Below are positions 8,556-19,799 of a stretch of DNA of 23,738 bases, piece after piece. This DNA comes from a virus. Position 1 is the stretch's first letter; each line of letters opens with the position of its first letter. Location: positions 1 through 23,738 of IMG/VR virus record IMGVR_UViG_3300044627_001671; one strand, 5' to 3'. Made by a program: the position numbers and the translations under genes. The notes beneath the pieces are model-generated. The model ran no database searches and was not told the DNA's origin. It saw only the letters and a program-made list of their open reading frames with translations.

Positions 8556-9100
8556 TTTGTAGCCCTAACAAACATCCATTCAGGATGCATATGATTTGTA
8601 AATATTAAGTTTTTAAATCCTGCATCACTTAATATTCTGTCAACTTCAAACCTTGATGTTTGATAAGAGTATGGAGAGTTCTCTTCCCCAACAACAAACT
8701 GAAAGAATAAAATACCATCAACTTTTAATTTTTCATAAGCAAGTTTTATGTAGTTAATCTTTTCTTGGTGTTCAATATGTTGAAAGACTAACATTGAATA
8801 TACAAGATCAAGGTTGTCTGCAAGTTCTTGATACTTTATGTTATCTCTTTTAGGTGCAAGGTTTATCATTTCATCAGATATGTCTATCCCATAGAAGTTA
8901 CAGTCTTTGTGCATATCTGCAAAAGGAACTAGCAGTCTGCCTATTCCGCAACCAATTTCTAAAACATTGTTCCATTCGTCATTATTATTTTTTATAAGAT
9001 CCAAAAATGTTTCAGTAGTTGCCCACTCATCTGCAATATATTTATACCTTACATCTGGATCTTTAGCAGCGTTATCCCAAAAAGTTTTAGCATGATTCAT
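8552..9100 (-). CDS. Class I SAM-dependent methyltransferase
   Basis: A 182-residue Rossmann methyltransferase. VLEIGCGIG (46-54) is motif I, which binds S-adenosylmethionine. YGIDISDEM is motif II, with the ribose-binding aspartate. LVYSMLVFQHI is motif IV. The N-terminus FWDNAAKDPDVRY is typical of small-molecule or sugar methyltransferases. I chose ATG 9100 because AGGTG precedes it and the overlap with the upstream gene is short; ATG 9118 would add six residues. Within a glycosyltransferase operon, a sugar O- or N-methylation role is likely. Confidence 0.85.
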   Translation of the reverse strand: MNHAKTFWDNAAKDPDVRYKYIADEWATTETFLDLIKNNNDEWNNVLEIGCGIGRLLVPFADMHKDCNFYGIDISDEMINLAPKRDNIKYQELADNLDLVYSMLVFQHIEHQEKINYIKLAYEKLKVDGILFFQFVVGEENSPYSYQTSRFEVDRILSDAGFKNLIFTNHMHPEWMFVRATK

Positions 9101-9800
9101 AATAAAGATGCACCTCATGCTGGTAGTCTAAAATTATTTCAGTATATCCTAATCCCTTGATCCAGTGTCTAAGATTATATAAAGATTCATCCCATTGCTG
9201 TAACATAAACTCAGGGTGTCCAGATAGCCAAATCTTTGGTTTGTACTCTCTAAGCACCTTCTCTGCACCTCCTAGCACCCTCCATTCACTACCCTCTACG
9301 TCCAATGAAATAGCGGTAGGTGGTTTAATTCCATGATCATATACACAAGAATCTATAGTGATTTGCCCATAGGTATCTCCTTCAAGATACAATTCTTTAA
9401 ATCCATGTGCTGCTTCAATTACATCATTAACTTCTGGGGGCCATTCATTGTAATATATTCTAGAAAGTTTATTTATCTTGTCAGATGCAAATCCAGGAAT
9501 ACATACCATGGGAATTTCTAAATTATTTGCAGTCCATGTTGCAGGAAAGTGCGACCAAACTTTAGGGTTTGGCTCAAATAAAACTACTTCTGCACCCCAC
9601 ATTTGACATAGTGCTGGAAATTCTCCTTCTTCAGCACCAACGTAGTAAACAACATCTTCAGTACCAATGTTCTCAGACATATGTTTTAATCTTGGTTTTT
9701 CCCACCCATGTGGTTCATACCAGTCTGGTCTATCTGCACGATGCTTAGGCAAGATCATTTCAAACTCTCCGTTTAAAACTGCTTTAACCATTTCTGTCAT
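9087..9800 (-). CDS. FkbM-family methyltransferase
   Basis: A 237-residue SAM methyltransferase of the FkbM type. VVYYVGAEEGEF is a modified motif I. AEVVLFEPNPKVW is the acidic loop that binds the SAM ribose. ISLDVEGSEWRVLGGAEKVL is the family's hallmark D-x-E-G-x-E block. FkbM enzymes O-methylate sugars and polyketides. ATG 9800 gives an ATGA overlap with the epimerase stop; an in-frame ATG at 9839 would add 13 residues that also look protein-like, so the start is uncertain. Confidence 0.85.
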   Translation of the reverse strand: MTEMVKAVLNGEFEMILPKHRADRPDWYEPHGWEKPRLKHMSENIGTEDVVYYVGAEEGEFPALCQMWGAEVVLFEPNPKVWSHFPATWTANNLEIPMVCIPGFASDKINKLSRIYYNEWPPEVNDVIEAAHGFKELYLEGDTYGQITIDSCVYDHGIKPPTAISLDVEGSEWRVLGGAEKVLREYKPKIWLSGHPEFMLQQWDESLYNLRHWIKGLGYTEIILDYQHEVHLYYESC

Positions 9801-10681
9801 TTTTGCAACCATTCTATTAGTGATACCTTTGGCATCCATCCAGTTAAATTTTTAAACTTAGAGTTAGACGCAAGAGTTTCTTGAACCTCTCCAACTCTTG
9901 ACGGGATAAACTTAACATCATTTGAAATCATATTAGCAATATCAAGTATAGAGTAGTTATTTCCATACCCAATATTATATACTTCACCAAACCCATCTTT
10001 TGTCTGAGATGCAAGGATGTTTGCTTCTACTACATCAGATATGTGTGTAAAGTCTCTGCGTTGAGATCCATCTCCAACTACCGTTAATGGCTTTCCTTCG
10101 TGGTATTGTTTTAAGAATAACCCTATTACTGGTGCATACTGACCTTTAAGGGGCTGTCTATTTCCGTAAACGTTAAAATATCTAAGGGATATAGTTTCTA
10201 AACCATACAAGTTATAATACACTCTTGCTAAATTTTCCCCAAAAACTTTTGCTGCGGAATAAGGTGTTAGTGGATCAGACTGCTGAGTTTCTGTGTTTGG
10301 AATAAAGGACTTTTTTCCATATGCAGAAGATGTGCTTGAATAAATTAGTCTACCTACCTTGTTAACCCTACAAAGTTCAAGAACATTGGCTGTTCCTACT
10401 GCGTTTGATTGAATAGATTTTTTAGGATTTAGTATTGCTGGCTGTATTCTTGCATCAGATGCAACGTGAAATACGCAGTCAATATCTTTAAAGAGTGGGG
10501 CAATCAGATCATAATCACAAATATCATACTTATAGTTTTGTGCTTTATCATTCCAATAGAATTGTTCATGACACTCTGCAGACTCATCATCAACACAAAT
10601 AACATCATGACCAAGACTAATTAACTTATCAACAAGGTTTGATCCAATAAATCCAGCACCACCCGTCACTATACAGTTCAT
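9797..10681 (-). CDS. NAD-dependent NDP-sugar epimerase/dehydratase (SDR)
   Basis: A 294-residue extended short-chain dehydrogenase. GGAGFIG (7-13) is the NAD-binding glycine motif, SSTS (115-118) supplies the catalytic serine or threonine, and Y141-x3-K145 (YSAAK) is the catalytic pair. RYFNVYG and GDGSQRRDFTHISD are nucleotide-sugar recognition blocks of the UDP-glucose/UDP-GlcNAc 4-epimerase and dehydratase group. It makes an activated sugar for the surrounding glycosyltransferases. It overlaps both neighbours by 4 bp. It is slightly short at the C-terminus relative to typical 310-330 residue relatives. Confidence 0.9.
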   Translation of the reverse strand: MNCIVTGGAGFIGSNLVDKLISLGHDVICVDDESAECHEQFYWNDKAQNYKYDICDYDLIAPLFKDIDCVFHVASDARIQPAILNPKKSIQSNAVGTANVLELCRVNKVGRLIYSSTSSAYGKKSFIPNTETQQSDPLTPYSAAKVFGENLARVYYNLYGLETISLRYFNVYGNRQPLKGQYAPVIGLFLKQYHEGKPLTVVGDGSQRRDFTHISDVVEANILASQTKDGFGEVYNIGYGNNYSILDIANMISNDVKFIPSRVGEVQETLASNSKFKNLTGWMPKVSLIEWLQK

Positions 10682-11637
10682 TGTATTCCTAACTCACTCA
10701 TAATGATTTTCCATCTATGGATGTATGTATGCTCTTGCTTAGTTTTTTCATGGCCACTTAACCTGATACGCTCCCTATCAACACCATTTTCAAGATACTT
10801 GTCTATCTTAGTTCTTAGATCTTCTAAGTTACCGTGTTCATAAAAAACAATTTCTTCTTCATCAACAAAGTAATCTTCTAAACCTTTGATGCGAGGGTAG
10901 ATAGTAAATCCTCCACGACCAGTACTCTCAAACAACCTATCACTAGTGTAATAAGGATAGTTAAAGTTAATGTTAAGGCTATCTCCTACTGCCACCTTAC
11001 TTTGTGCGTATATCTTATTTAACTCATCACCACGCACAGTCCCAGTATCTCCATCTCCACCAACGTGAAGAAATCTACTTCCATAAGTCTTTCTTAGAAA
11101 ATCTATAAGGTCTGATCTATACTTATGCTCGTGGTGATATCTCTTGCTACCCACAAATATTACGTCATACTTAAACTTATCTGGGTCATAATCCTTATGA
11201 ATATAACATTCTTTATCATAAACTCCTGCAGGAACAAAGTGTCCCTTTACCTCTGTGTTTTCGTTAAACCAGTCAGCCATCAATTTATCTACTGTAAAGA
11301 AGTGACCAATAGTTTTATAGAAGTTGTCATTATCAAGATCTTTCTGGCGATCAAGTCCAAACCATAAATCAAGGTGATAGGTAATTGTTTCTACCCCTGC
11401 CTGCTTTAACTGAAGTAGTACATTATCCATTGTAACTCTTCCGCTTGTCTCCCAGCCATGCGTATGTACCCAGATAAATAGGTCTGAGTTCAAGGCTTGG
11501 TCAAGAATTACGTGGCTTTTTGCTTGCTTTTCTTGCAATTTTACAACGGTATGCCCAAGAGATTCAAGACTCTTAGCATGATGATTTTCACTACTATAAG
11601 AAACCTCAAAGTTTCCTAGAAAAACAATTTTAGCCAA
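10678..11637 (-). CDS. CgeB-like GT-B glycosyltransferase
   Basis: A 319-residue protein. The N-terminal KIVFLGNFEVSYSSENHHAK and SDLFIWVHTHGW segments form the acceptor domain, and ETITYHLDLWFG ends it. YDVIFVGSKRYHHEHKYR and TSDRLFESTGRGGFTIYPR form the C-terminal donor site, as in spore-maturation CgeB-like and Glyco_trans_1_2 proteins. It starts with TTG behind an AAAGGGG ribosome site and is the first gene of the minus-strand glycan operon, with a TATAAT promoter at 11664-11672. Confidence 0.8.
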   Translation of the reverse strand: MAKIVFLGNFEVSYSSENHHAKSLESLGHTVVKLQEKQAKSHVILDQALNSDLFIWVHTHGWETSGRVTMDNVLLQLKQAGVETITYHLDLWFGLDRQKDLDNDNFYKTIGHFFTVDKLMADWFNENTEVKGHFVPAGVYDKECYIHKDYDPDKFKYDVIFVGSKRYHHEHKYRSDLIDFLRKTYGSRFLHVGGDGDTGTVRGDELNKIYAQSKVAVGDSLNINFNYPYYTSDRLFESTGRGGFTIYPRIKGLEDYFVDEEEIVFYEHGNLEDLRTKIDKYLENGVDRERIRLSGHEKTKQEHTYIHRWKIIMSELGIQ

Positions 11638-11663
11638 CGAATTACCCCTTTTAGTTTCATTCT

Positions 11664-11672
11664 ATTATAGCA
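11664..11672 (-). promoter_or_regulatory. Extended -10 promoter of the glycan operon, abutting tRNA-Arg
   Basis: On the minus strand TGC-TATAAT is a perfect extended -10. Its TG bases are the last base of the tRNA acceptor stem and the discriminator base. Any -35 would sit in the tRNA T-arm, where no good hexamer is seen. The transcript would have a leader of about 20 nt with an AAAGGGG ribosome site. Confidence 0.55.
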
Positions 11673-11742
11673 TCTCTGGTAGGATTTGAACCTACGACCT
11701 ACACCTTAGAAGGGTGTCACTCTTCCGCTGAGTTACAGAGAT
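11671..11742 (-). tRNA. tRNA-Arg (anticodon TCT)
   Basis: All four arms fold. The acceptor ATCTCTG pairs with CAGAGAT, the D stem ACTC with GAGT, the anticodon stem ACACC with GGTGT around a CTTCTAA loop, and the T stem GTAGG with CCTAC around TTCAAAT. The discriminator is G and no CCA is encoded. It would read AGA codons, common in this AT-rich phage but probably rarer in the host. Confidence 0.93.
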
Positions 11743-11746
11743 TTAG

Positions 11747-11820
11747 TACACCAGGTAGGACTTGAACCTACGATAGCCGAATTATGAGTTCGGTGCCTTA
11801 ACCAACTTGGCTACTGGTGC
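11747..11820 (-). tRNA. tRNA with CAT anticodon (Met, or Ile2 after lysidine modification)
   Basis: The acceptor GCACCAG pairs with CTGGTGT (G-U at the first pair). The D stem is GCC/GGC, the anticodon stem CCGAA/TTCGG holds a CTCATAA loop, and the T stem GTAGG/CCTAC is intact. The discriminator is A. Position 1-72 is not the initiator-type mismatch, so it is an elongator Met or an Ile2 species. Its 5' end carries the last 10 bp of the upstream CDS, and it is 4 bp from tRNA-Arg. Confidence 0.92.
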
Positions 11821-12080
11821 TTAATTTTAGGCTTGGGCATTCTTTCTTTAATCAACTTAATAACTTCATCAATGCCCTCAGCATATGCTTCAGCATCATC
11901 TTTAGCCCACATTAAATTACCATCCTGATCAAATGATGAACCACGATAAACTAAGTAGTCATACTTATGTTTTTCAAATAATTCAATCAGTTGTTTGCGT
12001 TCTGCTGCAATAGACTTTGAACATCCACTACAAGGACAGAGCCAGTCGCCACGAGCAGAGGTTTGATTTGGATCAGCCAC
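11811..12080 (-). CDS. Hypothetical protein with CPCSGC motif
   Basis: An 89-residue, GTG-started protein. Residues about 15-20 (CPCSGC) form a compact cysteine cluster that could bind zinc. The rest is helical and acidic to basic (ERKQLIELFEKHKYDYLVY, AYAEGIDEVIKLIKERM). Its stop codon lies inside the adjacent tRNA gene. It overlaps the upstream membrane peptide by 8 bp. Function unknown. Confidence 0.7.
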   Translation of the reverse strand: MADPNQTSARGDWLCPCSGCSKSIAAERKQLIELFEKHKYDYLVYRGSSFDQDGNLMWAKDDAEAYAEGIDEVIKLIKERMPKPKIKHQ

Positions 12081-12210
12081 CTATTAATGCTCCCAACAAT
12101 AGACCAATTAAAAACATTCCAAGACCAATTGTCCAATGATAAGACTTCATCATATAATCTTTAATAATCTTATCACGAACTTCATTTGGCACATCATAAT
12201 TGTTTTCCAT
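12073..12210 (-). CDS. Small single-pass membrane protein, 45 aa
   Basis: An ATG-started peptide: a polar N-terminus (MENNYDVPNEVRDKIIKDY), then one membrane helix (WTIGLGMFLIGLLLGALIGG) that runs to the end and contains a GxxxG-like pattern. GGGG lies about 11 bp upstream of the start. It ends 8 bp inside the next gene. Function unknown; the topology suggests an accessory membrane peptide. Confidence 0.65.
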   Translation of the reverse strand: MENNYDVPNEVRDKIIKDYMMKSYHWTIGLGMFLIGLLLGALIGG

Positions 12211-12218
12211 AATTAAAG

Positions 12219-12356
12219 TTACCCCACTGGCTGTCTTGGAATCATCATACTACATTTTTCACAATAATCATATAGCAACCCAGTAAATGGGCATGCACCA
12301 CCATAGGCTAGTCTGTGGCCGCTTATCTTACACTTAATAAATTTAATAACATTCAT
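12219..12356 (-). CDS. Short Cys/His protein resembling DUF1660
   Basis: A 45-residue protein with C9-x4-H14, C22 and C32-x2-C35 (KCKISGH, then YDYCEKC). This resembles the zinc-binding layout of DUF1660-type phage peptides, where a CxxxGH start pairs with a later CxxC. It sits 2 bp downstream of the 12359 gene and 8 bp upstream of the membrane peptide. Function unknown. Confidence 0.65.
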   Translation of the reverse strand: MNVIKFIKCKISGHRLAYGGACPFTGLLYDYCEKCSMMIPRQPVG

Positions 12357-12358
12357 AA

Positions 12359-12574
12359 TCATTTGATTTCGTTTTGTCCTCTCGCAATAGCAGCAGATAT
12401 AGTAAATGCTTTTTGTGTACGACGGGACTTATTTAAACCCTTTGCTGCCCAAAGATCAGATGTAGCAAGAATATCAACTGCTATCTGTTCTCTGATTTCT
12501 TTTACAGTAAACACAATAAAGTCCCATACCTGCTTCTTTTGTTCATCGGTAAGTTCTTCTGTCCAGTTACTCAT
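12359..12574 (-). CDS. Hypothetical helical protein, 71 aa
   Basis: I chose ATG 12574 because AGAGGAG lies just upstream and it overlaps the previous stop; a TTG at 12589 would add five residues. The protein is helical (WTEELTDEQKKQVWDFIVF, then KEIREQIAVDIL) with a basic C-terminal third (NKSRRTQKAF). No family recognised. Confidence 0.65.
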   Translation of the reverse strand: MSNWTEELTDEQKKQVWDFIVFTVKEIREQIAVDILATSDLWAAKGLNKSRRTQKAFTISAAIARGQNEIK

Positions 12575-12671
12575 CTGACTCCTCTTCAAATTCTTTTAAT
12601 GCATTTTTATTTTTAAAACAATAGTTGCAGTCTCCATTAACTATTTTAGATCCGCAATCTATACAAAACAT
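12567..12671 (-). CDS. Zinc-ribbon micropeptide, 34 aa
   Basis: A tiny protein with two Cys pairs: FCIDCGS at the start and CNYC at residues 15-18, giving a four-cysteine zinc ribbon, followed by an acidic helix (LKEFEEESDE). The ATG sits 1 bp after the upstream stop and the gene ends in an 8-bp overlap. One of many such peptides in this region. Confidence 0.7.
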   Translation of the reverse strand: MFCIDCGSKIVNGDCNYCFKNKNALKEFEEESDE

Positions 12672-12672
12672 A

Positions 12673-13137
12673 TTAGTCTCTACTTCCATCCCAATCGCCA
12701 ATTTTTGTAGTTGATATGCCGTGCTCAAACCATAACTTTAATACTGCTGGATTATCATCAATAGCATGAATGACATTCCACTGCTTCTTAATCTTAGCAA
12801 GGATCTCACTCTTTACTTCATAGTCAGGTCTAAAGTCACCATCTTTACGCATATACAAAGCGTGGTGTCCAATATCATTTTTTGCTAGCCAATATGAGGT
12901 AATGCCCCGCCAGTATTCATTACGAGAAGTAACAACGATAACATGATTCTGATCAAAGAAAGTTTGATTAACCATCTCAACTACTTCTTGATTTGGTTCA
13001 GCATTAACTGATTCAGAATGAAACTTATCGTAATCCTTCTTAAAGTCAGGACTCTTGTGTATATTTCTAATGTAGTGTAGGTACGGCTCAACATTTGCTA
13101 AGGTACCGTCAACATCAAATATAACTGCATTATGCAT
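12673..13137 (-). CDS. HAD-superfamily phosphatase (Pnk 3'-phosphatase-like)
   Basis: A 154-residue haloacid dehalogenase-fold hydrolase. FDVDGTLA (7-14) has the nucleophile D8 and acid/base D10. VVTSRNEYWR holds the motif II serine or threonine. AIDDNPAV carries the motif IV aspartates that bind magnesium. The pattern is close to the phosphatase domain of T4 polynucleotide kinase, but the kinase domain is absent. It could remove 3' phosphates during nucleic-acid repair, or dephosphorylate nucleotides. It overlaps its upstream neighbour by 8 bp. Confidence 0.82.
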   Translation of the reverse strand: MHNAVIFDVDGTLANVEPYLHYIRNIHKSPDFKKDYDKFHSESVNAEPNQEVVEMVNQTFFDQNHVIVVTSRNEYWRGITSYWLAKNDIGHHALYMRKDGDFRPDYEVKSEILAKIKKQWNVIHAIDDNPAVLKLWFEHGISTTKIGDWDGSRD

Positions 13138-18018: not shown

Positions 18019-18228
18019 TTAGATATTCCTATGTTTCCAATTTAGCAGGGTATACAAAGCATAGCCGTACCAAGTCTTACTACAAACCTTAATACCATCT
18101 CCCCCATAATGATCCATCATAAATAGGATTAGTCTGGTTTTGTCATTTGTTCTAATAAATTTACCACAGTCAATACAGGTTTCAAAGATATATTTGGATA
18201 GTGGTTTGTCAAAGTTTACATCGTTCAT
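18019..18228 (-). CDS. Hypothetical protein, 69 aa
   Basis: An AAGGAGAG ribosome site precedes the ATG, which shares a base with the upstream stop (TAATG). CIDCGKFI at 18-25 is a single CxxC and a later C49 lies in KVCSKTW; too little to prove a zinc site. The C-terminus is hydrophobic-aromatic (YGYALYTLLNW). Function unknown. Confidence 0.62.
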   Translation of the reverse strand: MNDVNFDKPLSKYIFETCIDCGKFIRTNDKTRLILFMMDHYGGDGIKVCSKTWYGYALYTLLNWKHRNI

Positions 18229-18692
18229 TATCTCTCCTTATGGGTAGGCCAATAGTATAAACATTTATCGCAGCAAGGTTTGGCGGTATATGAATTAAAC
18301 TGATTATACAGCACAGAATCCTTCCTATAAAGATTAGCCTTATGGCTATCTACAACTCTGGATAAGTGTTCTGGCTTTTGCCAAATAGGTTTATCCTTAC
18401 CCCACATATGGCTAAAGGATTGCTTTAGGGTTTTAAGGTTTGATACATTTTTGTCAGTCTTAATGCCACGAAAGTCTGCTTCATAAACCATATGATCAAT
18501 GTAGTCCATAAGGCTATGTTCGGCATCCTTCCACATAAGAACTGCTGGATGGTTTCGCCAAGCACCAGACTCAGATGCGCCAGATAAAACCTTCATAATC
18601 TGGTAGCCTTCTAGGATTTGTTTATTAAGGCGCTTGGAGTCCAGAGTCTGGGCAGTGTATTCGTAATCTGCTGAAGGTAAGAAGGTTTGCAT
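18228..18692 (-). CDS. Pyrimidine-dimer DNA glycosylase-like (Pyr_excise) protein
   Basis: A 154-residue protein opening with MQTFLPSADYEYTAQTLDSK, then RLNKQILEGYQI and WRNHPAVLMWKD. These blocks match the phage Pyr_excise-type family, in which an N-terminal residue serves in glycosylase/lyase chemistry (as in T4 endonuclease V, a distant relative). The C-terminal CCDKCLYYW adds a possible zinc site. It may repair UV lesions, sensible for a surface-water phage; that last point is inference. Confidence 0.75.
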   Translation of the reverse strand: MQTFLPSADYEYTAQTLDSKRLNKQILEGYQIMKVLSGASESGAWRNHPAVLMWKDAEHSLMDYIDHMVYEADFRGIKTDKNVSNLKTLKQSFSHMWGKDKPIWQKPEHLSRVVDSHKANLYRKDSVLYNQFNSYTAKPCCDKCLYYWPTHKER

Positions 18693-18987: not shown

Positions 18988-19116
18988 TTATTCCTCAAAT
19001 GAGGTTTGTTCCTCAAACATCTTGTCCTGACATTTAGGACAGGCAGATGTTGGCTTTGAGGTTTGATAGGATACTTCAAACATACCCCCACAGTTAAAGC
19101 ATAATACGTTAGGCAT
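18988..19116 (-). CDS. Zinc-ribbon micropeptide, 42 aa, next to DnaA boxes
   Basis: CFNCGGMF (C6, C9) and CPKCQDKM (C26, C29) give a complete four-cysteine zinc ribbon. The ATG at 19116 has TGC-TACAAT ending 6 bp upstream. A longer overlapping minus frame through the DnaA boxes is rejected. Confidence 0.72.
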   Translation of the reverse strand: MPNVLCFNCGGMFEVSYQTSKPTSACPKCQDKMFEEQTSFEE

Positions 19117-19122
19117 AGGTAA

Positions 19123-19131
19123 ATTGTAGCA
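19123..19131 (-). promoter_or_regulatory. Extended -10 for the 19116 zinc-ribbon gene
   Basis: TGC-TACAAT on the minus strand ends 6 bp before the ATG. The first DnaA box starts 4 bp upstream, inside the core promoter, so DnaA binding could repress it. No -35 hexamer is clear. Confidence 0.5.
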
Positions 19132-19134
19132 TAG

Positions 19135-19185
19135 TTATCCACAATATGAGATGAGTTATCCACAGGTTTGGCATAGTTATCCACA
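19135..19185 (+). other. Three phased DnaA boxes (putative origin core)
   Basis: TTATCCACA, a perfect DnaA-box consensus, occurs at 19135-19143, 19156-19164 and 19177-19185. All are in the same orientation and start exactly 21 bp apart, about two helical turns, so bound DnaA would line up on one face. AT-rich DNA (about 19187-19220) follows and could be the unwinding element. Confidence 0.75.
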
Positions 19186-19270
19186 GATAAATCTTACTGA
19201 TATTTTTTAGATATGGTTTACGTGGAGTGAAGTGGAGCATAGTGGGGAATGGAGCATTTAGACAGATGCG

Positions 19271-19777
19271 TTCGTAATGTCCAACCGCCCAAACCTCCTA
19301 CCACACAAACCTTCATATGTCAAACCTTCAAACCTTTATAGCCGAATTATACTCCCAAACCTCCATATTGTCAAACCTTTATAGCCTAAAAACCCTAGAC
19401 AAAATGTAGCAAAATGTCCAGTATTTGTGATAAAAAGAATAAAAAGGTTTGGATAATATCTAAAAACCAGGGAAAAAGGTTTGATATCGTAATCTTTTAT
19501 TTGGGTGTAGTTATACTAGGGGATTTGGTATATGATTCCTGGATCCCCTGGTTTGTATACCGTGGATCGTAATGTCTGATAGGATAGTGAGTGATCGTAA
19601 TGTCGGGGATCGTAATAAAAGACTTGACAAACCTTAGTATCTAGAGTATACCGTGCCCCGTATATGGGGATATAAGGTTTGGGATCGTAATGTCTAAAAA
19701 GTCCAGTGAATTTTTTTGTTGGGTTCGTAAAGGAGGTTTGGCTAGAGGCCCCGTGATTTTTTTTCGAAGGTTCGTAA
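19271..19777 (+). repeat. Iteron-like (A/T)TCGTAA(TGTC) repeats
   Basis: Full GATCGTAATGTC copies start at 19565, 19593 and 19683. Shorter forms are at 19271 (TTCGTAATGTC), 19486, 19608, 19724 and 19771, with one more outside at 18901. All are in the same orientation. Spacing is irregular, unlike classical iterons. Confidence 0.7.
19624..19652 (+). promoter_or_regulatory. Plus-strand promoter candidate inside the non-coding region
   Basis: TTGACA (19624-19629), a 17-bp spacer and TATACC (19647-19652). No gene follows on the plus strand, so a short RNA would begin near 19659, right at a CCCC-GTATAT-GGGG hairpin. The -35 carries the same TTGACAAACCT overlap seen at 14610-14619. Confidence 0.45.
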
Positions 19778-19799
19778 AGGACGTTTTTGGGGGCTTCGA

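Follow-up and report, generated by a model that had tools for sequence, protein, structure and literature searches.

A conserved single-copy element with helically phased DnaA boxes in freshwater phages: a candidate replication origin

The window, a viral fragment of 23,738 bp from IMG/VR, was analysed over its full length; contig G004 is 99.97% identical to it and extends 10 kb further rightward. A WhiB gene is present, which points to actinobacterial hosts. Three copies of the DnaA-box 9-mer TTATCCACA lie on the + strand with their starts 21 bp apart, and mark the left boundary of a longer element (approximately nt 19123-19790) that extends beyond the part picked out in an earlier, sequence-only reading. 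In an alignment of the window with three relatives, the boxes are followed by GATWAATCTTACTGAT, then by a stretch that is rich in AT and melts easily, and then by GTGGAG repeats, GAGCAT and TCGTAAT; the element also carries two diverging sigma-70 promoters (Table 1). The zinc-ribbon gene next to the boxes is not a fixed part of the element, as an insertion of about 120 bp separates the two in relative G001. A -10-like TACAAT (nt 19123-19128) lies beside the start of this gene, the transcript of which would possibly be leaderless if read from there. A pyrimidine dimer DNA glycosylase homologue (PF03013) is found at nt 18228-18692.

Table 1. Features of the element and related sites (window positions unless another record is named).
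Feature	Position	Strand	Remarks
Zinc-ribbon gene, 42 aa, unannotated	18988..19116	-	neighbour of the element
DnaA box 1, TTATCCACA	19135..19143	+	exact match
DnaA box 2, TTATCCACA	19156..19164	+	exact match
DnaA box 3, TTATCCACA	19177..19185	+	exact match; adjoins conserved core
Conserved core GATAAATCTTACTGAT	19186..19201	+	one copy per genome in 12/12 records
AT-rich candidate unwinding element	19187..19226		lowest duplex stability at 19190-19219
GTGGAG-type repeats, 10-bp period	19222..19254	+	GTGGAG 19222, GTGGAG 19232, GTGGGG 19242, ATGGAG 19249
TCGTAAT motif	19272..19278	+	nearest copy to core
Other TCGTAAT copies	18902, 19487, 19567, 19595, 19610, 19685	box strand	
TCGTAAA variant	19725, 19772	box strand	
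Leftward sigma-70 promoter, TTGACA-17-TATAAT	19346..19374	-	perfect consensus; reads through repeats, core and boxes
Rightward sigma-70-like promoter, TTGACA-17-TATACC	19624..19652	+	no rightward gene behind
DnaA-box pairs with perfect CRP/GlxR-type palindromes (TGTGATTAAATTCACA and similar)	G004 23803-23862, 27794-27849, 30754-30810; G016 8684-12890		upstream of early leftward operons; G004 sites lie past the window's right end
Boxes of Lactococcus phage AM4	L507 418-488		TTATCCACA at 418, 439, 460; TTATACACA at 480, 20 bp on

The three boxes described in the sequence-only reading were confirmed, as was its estimate that such a 9-mer should occur less than once in the window: under a dinucleotide model 0.19 (+ strand) and 0.16 (- strand) exact copies are expected, and a same-strand triple in such a span about 1e-8 times by chance. 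A search of both strands of the entire window returned no further exact copy. Sequences with one mismatch are not enriched window-wide (14 found, 9.1 expected), so the signal is one of exact, clustered, same-strand copies and not of a general enrichment. The AT-rich stretch said to follow the boxes was borne out to a moderate degree, nt 19187-19226 being 75% AT (40 bp; 93rd percentile within the window). The easiest-melting 30-mer comes directly after the last box (nt 19190-19219), and melts more easily than 97.8% of the 30-mers of the window (top 2.2%).

An exact box joined to the core was found in at least 120 IMG/VR contigs, whereas 84,980 species genomes of bacteria and archaea (genome_contigs) contained none. 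An origin of the core by copying from a host oriC was rejected, there being no exact match in genome_contigs; a looser core pattern gave eight scattered matches there, in unrelated taxa, which were read as chance. Among 83 distinct copies of the element, all boxes upstream of the core are on the same strand and essentially none lie downstream. The core is single-copy, with exactly one per record in the 12 longer records. Loci selected by sequence pattern are biased towards the element, and conservation was therefore re-tested on loci chosen by DUF932, a gene unlinked to the pattern (n = 54 loci, each with 8 kb or more downstream; up to 3 mismatches allowed in the element). The element was detected in 49 of these, always on the same strand, once per locus and in synteny with DUF932, at a distance of 3.6-5.4 kb. 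The boxes belong to a compact, single-copy control region of about 1 kb that most members of a large freshwater phage family retain. No DNA-level match to named phages was obtained with the 2.7-kb region, and only weak, box-driven matches with 301 bp. A literature search returned nothing on this element; Ori-Finder-type predictions of DnaA boxes in a phage do exist (PMC11512268). Box clusters are also present in G016 (98 kb), a distant relative whose available record lacks the exact core.

The sequence-only reading had drawn attention to the exact 21-bp spacing of the boxes, and this was not conserved: the final two boxes are 21 bp apart in 4 of 115 distinct elements, the remaining distances being 11 bp (35), 12 bp (60), 23-24 bp (5) and, more rarely, 33, 44-45 (4) or 67 bp, with no second box in 5. 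The 11-12 bp class thus makes up 95 of the 115. Among box pairs sampled from IMG/VR with gaps of 0-30 and without regard to this phage family, those on the same strand cluster at spacings of 11-13, 20-24 and 29-34. Spacings are phased to approximately 10.5-11.5 bp with p ~1e-40 overall, a significance inflated by related contigs in the sample; leaving out the dominant 11-13 bp class gave p values of 1e-12 to 1e-15, which are too small for the same reason. The conserved feature is a set of spacings near multiples of one helical turn rather than 21 bp; the two-turn spacing seen in the window is one of those permitted and does not serve as a signature. Several consensus boxes are clustered and phased, as in an oriC-like region.

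Three TTATCCACA copies at exact 21-bp spacing also occur in a noncoding, AT-rich stretch of Lactococcus phage AM4 (Audreyjarvisvirus), an unrelated phage that has no core in common with the element. In a second phage group (L024, L069, L075, L110 and L132-L134), 21-bp-spaced box pairs are found within repeated hairpin-like elements, CCAGGGGGTTGTGGATAACCCCCGTAACCCTGTGGATAACCCCGC. The 9-mers might be operators for some other phage or host protein that reads TTATCCACA, as could be suggested by the zinc-ribbon gene, which starts beside the boxes with its -10-like TACAAT and in relative G003 (L126) is preceded by a separate single box. This is very improbable: TTATCCACA matches the bacterial DnaA consensus exactly, phasing is evident in the IMG/VR sample of box pairs, which was drawn without regard to the family, and the word is found in unrelated large phages such as AM4.

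Five of the 54 DUF932-selected loci (L458, L468, L480, L485 and L492) carry TTACTGAT at the same place with no TTATCCACA there, so that boxes are not the constant component they would be in an oriC-like region. Four of the five retain the GTGGAG repeats. In L498, TTGTTCACA stands alone in the box position. The stretches examined of L458, L468, L492 and L498 contain no exact box anywhere; three occur elsewhere in L480 and two in L485. A second TTACTGAT occupies the box position in L485. Strict dependence of the element on DnaA is unlikely, given that its other parts persist in five or six relatives that lack the boxes. The retention of the core without exact boxes means that these are best seen as a near-universal accessory, and the role of DnaA at the element is most likely accessory rather than essential.

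The core itself resembles part of a bacterial oriC basal unwinding system (BUS) of the B. subtilis type (PMC6669920, PMC8287927), in which consensus boxes also lie by a low-stability stretch. After a spacer of five bases, the window has a run of six in-frame NTN (DnaA-trio-like) triplets on the box strand (ATC TTA CTG ATA TTT TTT, from nt 19191), and most copies of the element have a tandem box pair. Runs of at least six triplets occur in most of the 83 copies against 1.9% of random stretches, four triplets of each run being dictated by the search pattern. The formal search rule asks for a DnaA box 0-16 bp from at least three NAN DnaA-trios (PMC8287927), an arrangement that is present in the window. 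A further rule, quoted in PMC7561715, has a GC cluster preceding the trios; triplets of the 3'-GAT-5' type after a GC cluster were not found, the triplets here being ATC TTA CTG ATA and the spacer, GATWA, AT-rich. Because the triplets are atypical, lack a GC cluster and are kept in box-less relatives, a DnaA-trio reading of them is possible rather than established. The element also differs from a BUS in being phage-borne, in having triplets that are mostly not 3'-GAT-5' and no GC-rich spacer, in adding GTGGAG repeats and two strong promoters, and in keeping its triplet core box-less in some relatives.

Most relatives have three GTGGAG repeats, and in the 83 distinct copies these peak at +47, +57 and +67. 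The GTGGA of the repeats (nt 19222-19254) is the reverse complement of the TCCAC in the DnaA box, and it is a speculative idea that the repeats act as weak, oppositely oriented DnaA sites. TCGTAAT is strongly strand-specific, with 344 copies counted downstream over 96 loci, an enrichment of about 36-fold, and none on the opposite strand. Direct repeats near an AT-rich stretch and a DnaA box are among the features by which iteron origins are recognised, and the 10-bp-period GTGGAG repeats and strand-specific TCGTAAT provide them here. In the iteron plasmid origins that have DnaA boxes, such as P1 oriR, F ori2 and RK2 oriV, DnaA assists a dedicated initiator. These origins share with the element the combination of DnaA boxes, an AT-rich stretch and phased short repeats in a compact region, but their iterons are about 17-22 bp rather than repeats of 10-bp period, and the present element is located in a large tailed phage.

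A leftward promoter (TTGACA-17-TA[T/G]) was found in 74 of 75 relatives, those also ending in T lying 140-240 bp from the last box, and the rightward promoter has a counterpart in 64 of 75; control stretches contained such promoters in 8 of 230 cases. Promoter-driven phage origins such as T4 oriF and lambda ori with pR likewise have a host-type promoter close to the unwinding stretch, but they do not rely on DnaA-box arrays beside the core. The region nt 19624-19790 has a conserved rightward promoter without a rightward gene, and a short noncoding RNA with UCGUAAU motifs may possibly be produced from it. Comparison with known RNAs gave only sub-threshold chance matches, and a conserved RNA structure was also rejected, the weak consensus pairing of CUCCAC with GUGGA being unconvincing.

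The early region of the same genomes holds further box clusters, most of which adjoin CRP/GlxR-type palindromes (TGTGA-N6-TCACA), and the DUF932-associated cluster lies at a nearly fixed distance upstream of its gene. The combined palindrome and DnaA-box sites may be promoters that read both CRP and DnaA. As these clusters have a promoter context, next to CRP-type palindromes and ahead of early operons, a box cluster alone does not indicate an origin in these phages, and the occurrence of boxes in promoter settings keeps alive the main rival explanation, that the element is a transcription control region with no replication start. In it, DnaA, together with a phage regulator that acts at the core and the GTGGAG repeats, would serve as roadblock, repressor or activator of a pair of divergent host promoters, and the leftward promoter would feed the leftward operon through a leader of about 220 nt that holds the boxes. 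The perfect consensus of this promoter and the conservation of the rightward one agree with such a scheme, as do the nearly fixed distance of other box clusters and CRP-like sites upstream of early operons, the dispensability of the boxes in some relatives, and the known activity of DnaA as a transcription factor (PMC8203912). The scheme leaves unexplained that conservation is higher in the core than around the promoters, that a stretch of low stability holds a fixed place next to the last box, that each genome has a single copy, and that no gene follows the rightward promoter; the CRP-type palindrome of the other clusters is also missing from the core element (present in 1 of 70). Transcription control without a replication start is, on balance, rather unlikely.

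Replication genes were annotated in one relative genome, G020 (119 kb), which encodes a DnaB-like helicase, a DnaG-like primase (CHC2/Toprim), DNA polymerase III alpha (DnaE) and RecA. This DnaE shares 51-55% identity with the DnaE of Streptomyces phages of the Stanwilliamsviridae, and the DUF932 protein of G020 shares 52-54% with their counterparts. No Pfam DnaA domain was detected in the ten relative records searched (several fragmentary; positive controls detected), and no Rep initiator was recognised among 30 proteins scanned with Pfam, most of the small genes having no family. Six related named Streptomyces phages (BillNye, Wakanda, Annadreamy, Jay2Jay and NootNoot of the Stanwilliamsviridae, and the unclassified Byblos) have related DnaE or DUF932 proteins and carry TTATCCACA clusters near the right end, in gene-poor stretches of about 0.3-0.7 kb beside early genes. 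They differ from the present family in having neither the GATWAATCTTACTGAT core nor a GTGGAG array, and their boxes are mostly in mixed orientation.

The reading of the boxes as a site of host-DnaA-dependent initiation was upheld in part: the conserved, single-copy, origin-like element, the phased boxes and a set of replisome genes without DnaA speak for it, but strict dependence is unlikely and there is no GC-skew switch at the element. Skew tracks gene strand in all whole contigs read, and was dropped as support for an origin in the window and its long relatives; a skew switch is a weak test of origins in phages. DnaA titration, which had been offered as the other possibility, would make the element a sink or state switch (datA- or DARS-like) through which the phage would stop host initiation, either by tying up DnaA or by resetting the nucleotide state of this protein. 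The exact box occurs three to nine times per record and the reversed control word once at most, phage DNA at high copy could titrate, and ColE1 offers a precedent in a 70-bp DARS with three boxes (PMC5835720). Set against these points, the boxes per genome are few, and titration needs no fixed core, phasing by a melting stretch, strand-specific motifs or promoters; titration by three boxes explains none of the other conserved parts of the element. A role as DnaA sink is accordingly improbable.

The interpretation that fits best, with a probability of roughly 0.55, is that the element is a phage replication origin at which host DnaA would be a near-universal but non-obligatory accessory. It is favoured because it would account for the single copy, the conserved position, the phased boxes by a melting stretch, the phased repeats, the host promoters and a set of phage replisome genes that includes none for DnaA. 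The lack of a skew switch, the box-less relatives, the rarity of exact 21-bp spacing, the missing exact core in the G016 record and the box clusters in promoter settings count against it, and strong promoters within the element fit a regulatory region too. In the proposed mechanism, host DnaA would bind the same-strand, helically phased boxes and cooperate at the adjacent AT-rich core, or spread onto it. The essential work would be done by a putative phage initiator that reads the core and the 10-bp-spaced GTGGAG repeats. Transcription from the strong host sigma-70 promoters, both through the element and away from it, would aid melting or priming, and the phage DnaB helicase, primase and DnaE would then take over, so that replication would start at the element.

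More tentatively, the element may represent an undescribed class of phage origin in a widespread lineage of freshwater actinophages, in which a phage melting core and GTGGAG repeats would be coupled to host DnaA and sigma-70 promoters; together with the CRP and DnaA-box sites, this might enable the phage to read the growth and replication state of its host both at the origin and at early promoters. The box-less relatives would allow initiation with and without the help of DnaA to be compared at one core in naturally occurring genomes. The lineage is found in many IMG/VR contigs and, if the element is an origin, it would be a ready marker of the replication start in such uncultured phages, and would suggest continued use of the host initiator even by large virulent phages that encode a polymerase themselves.
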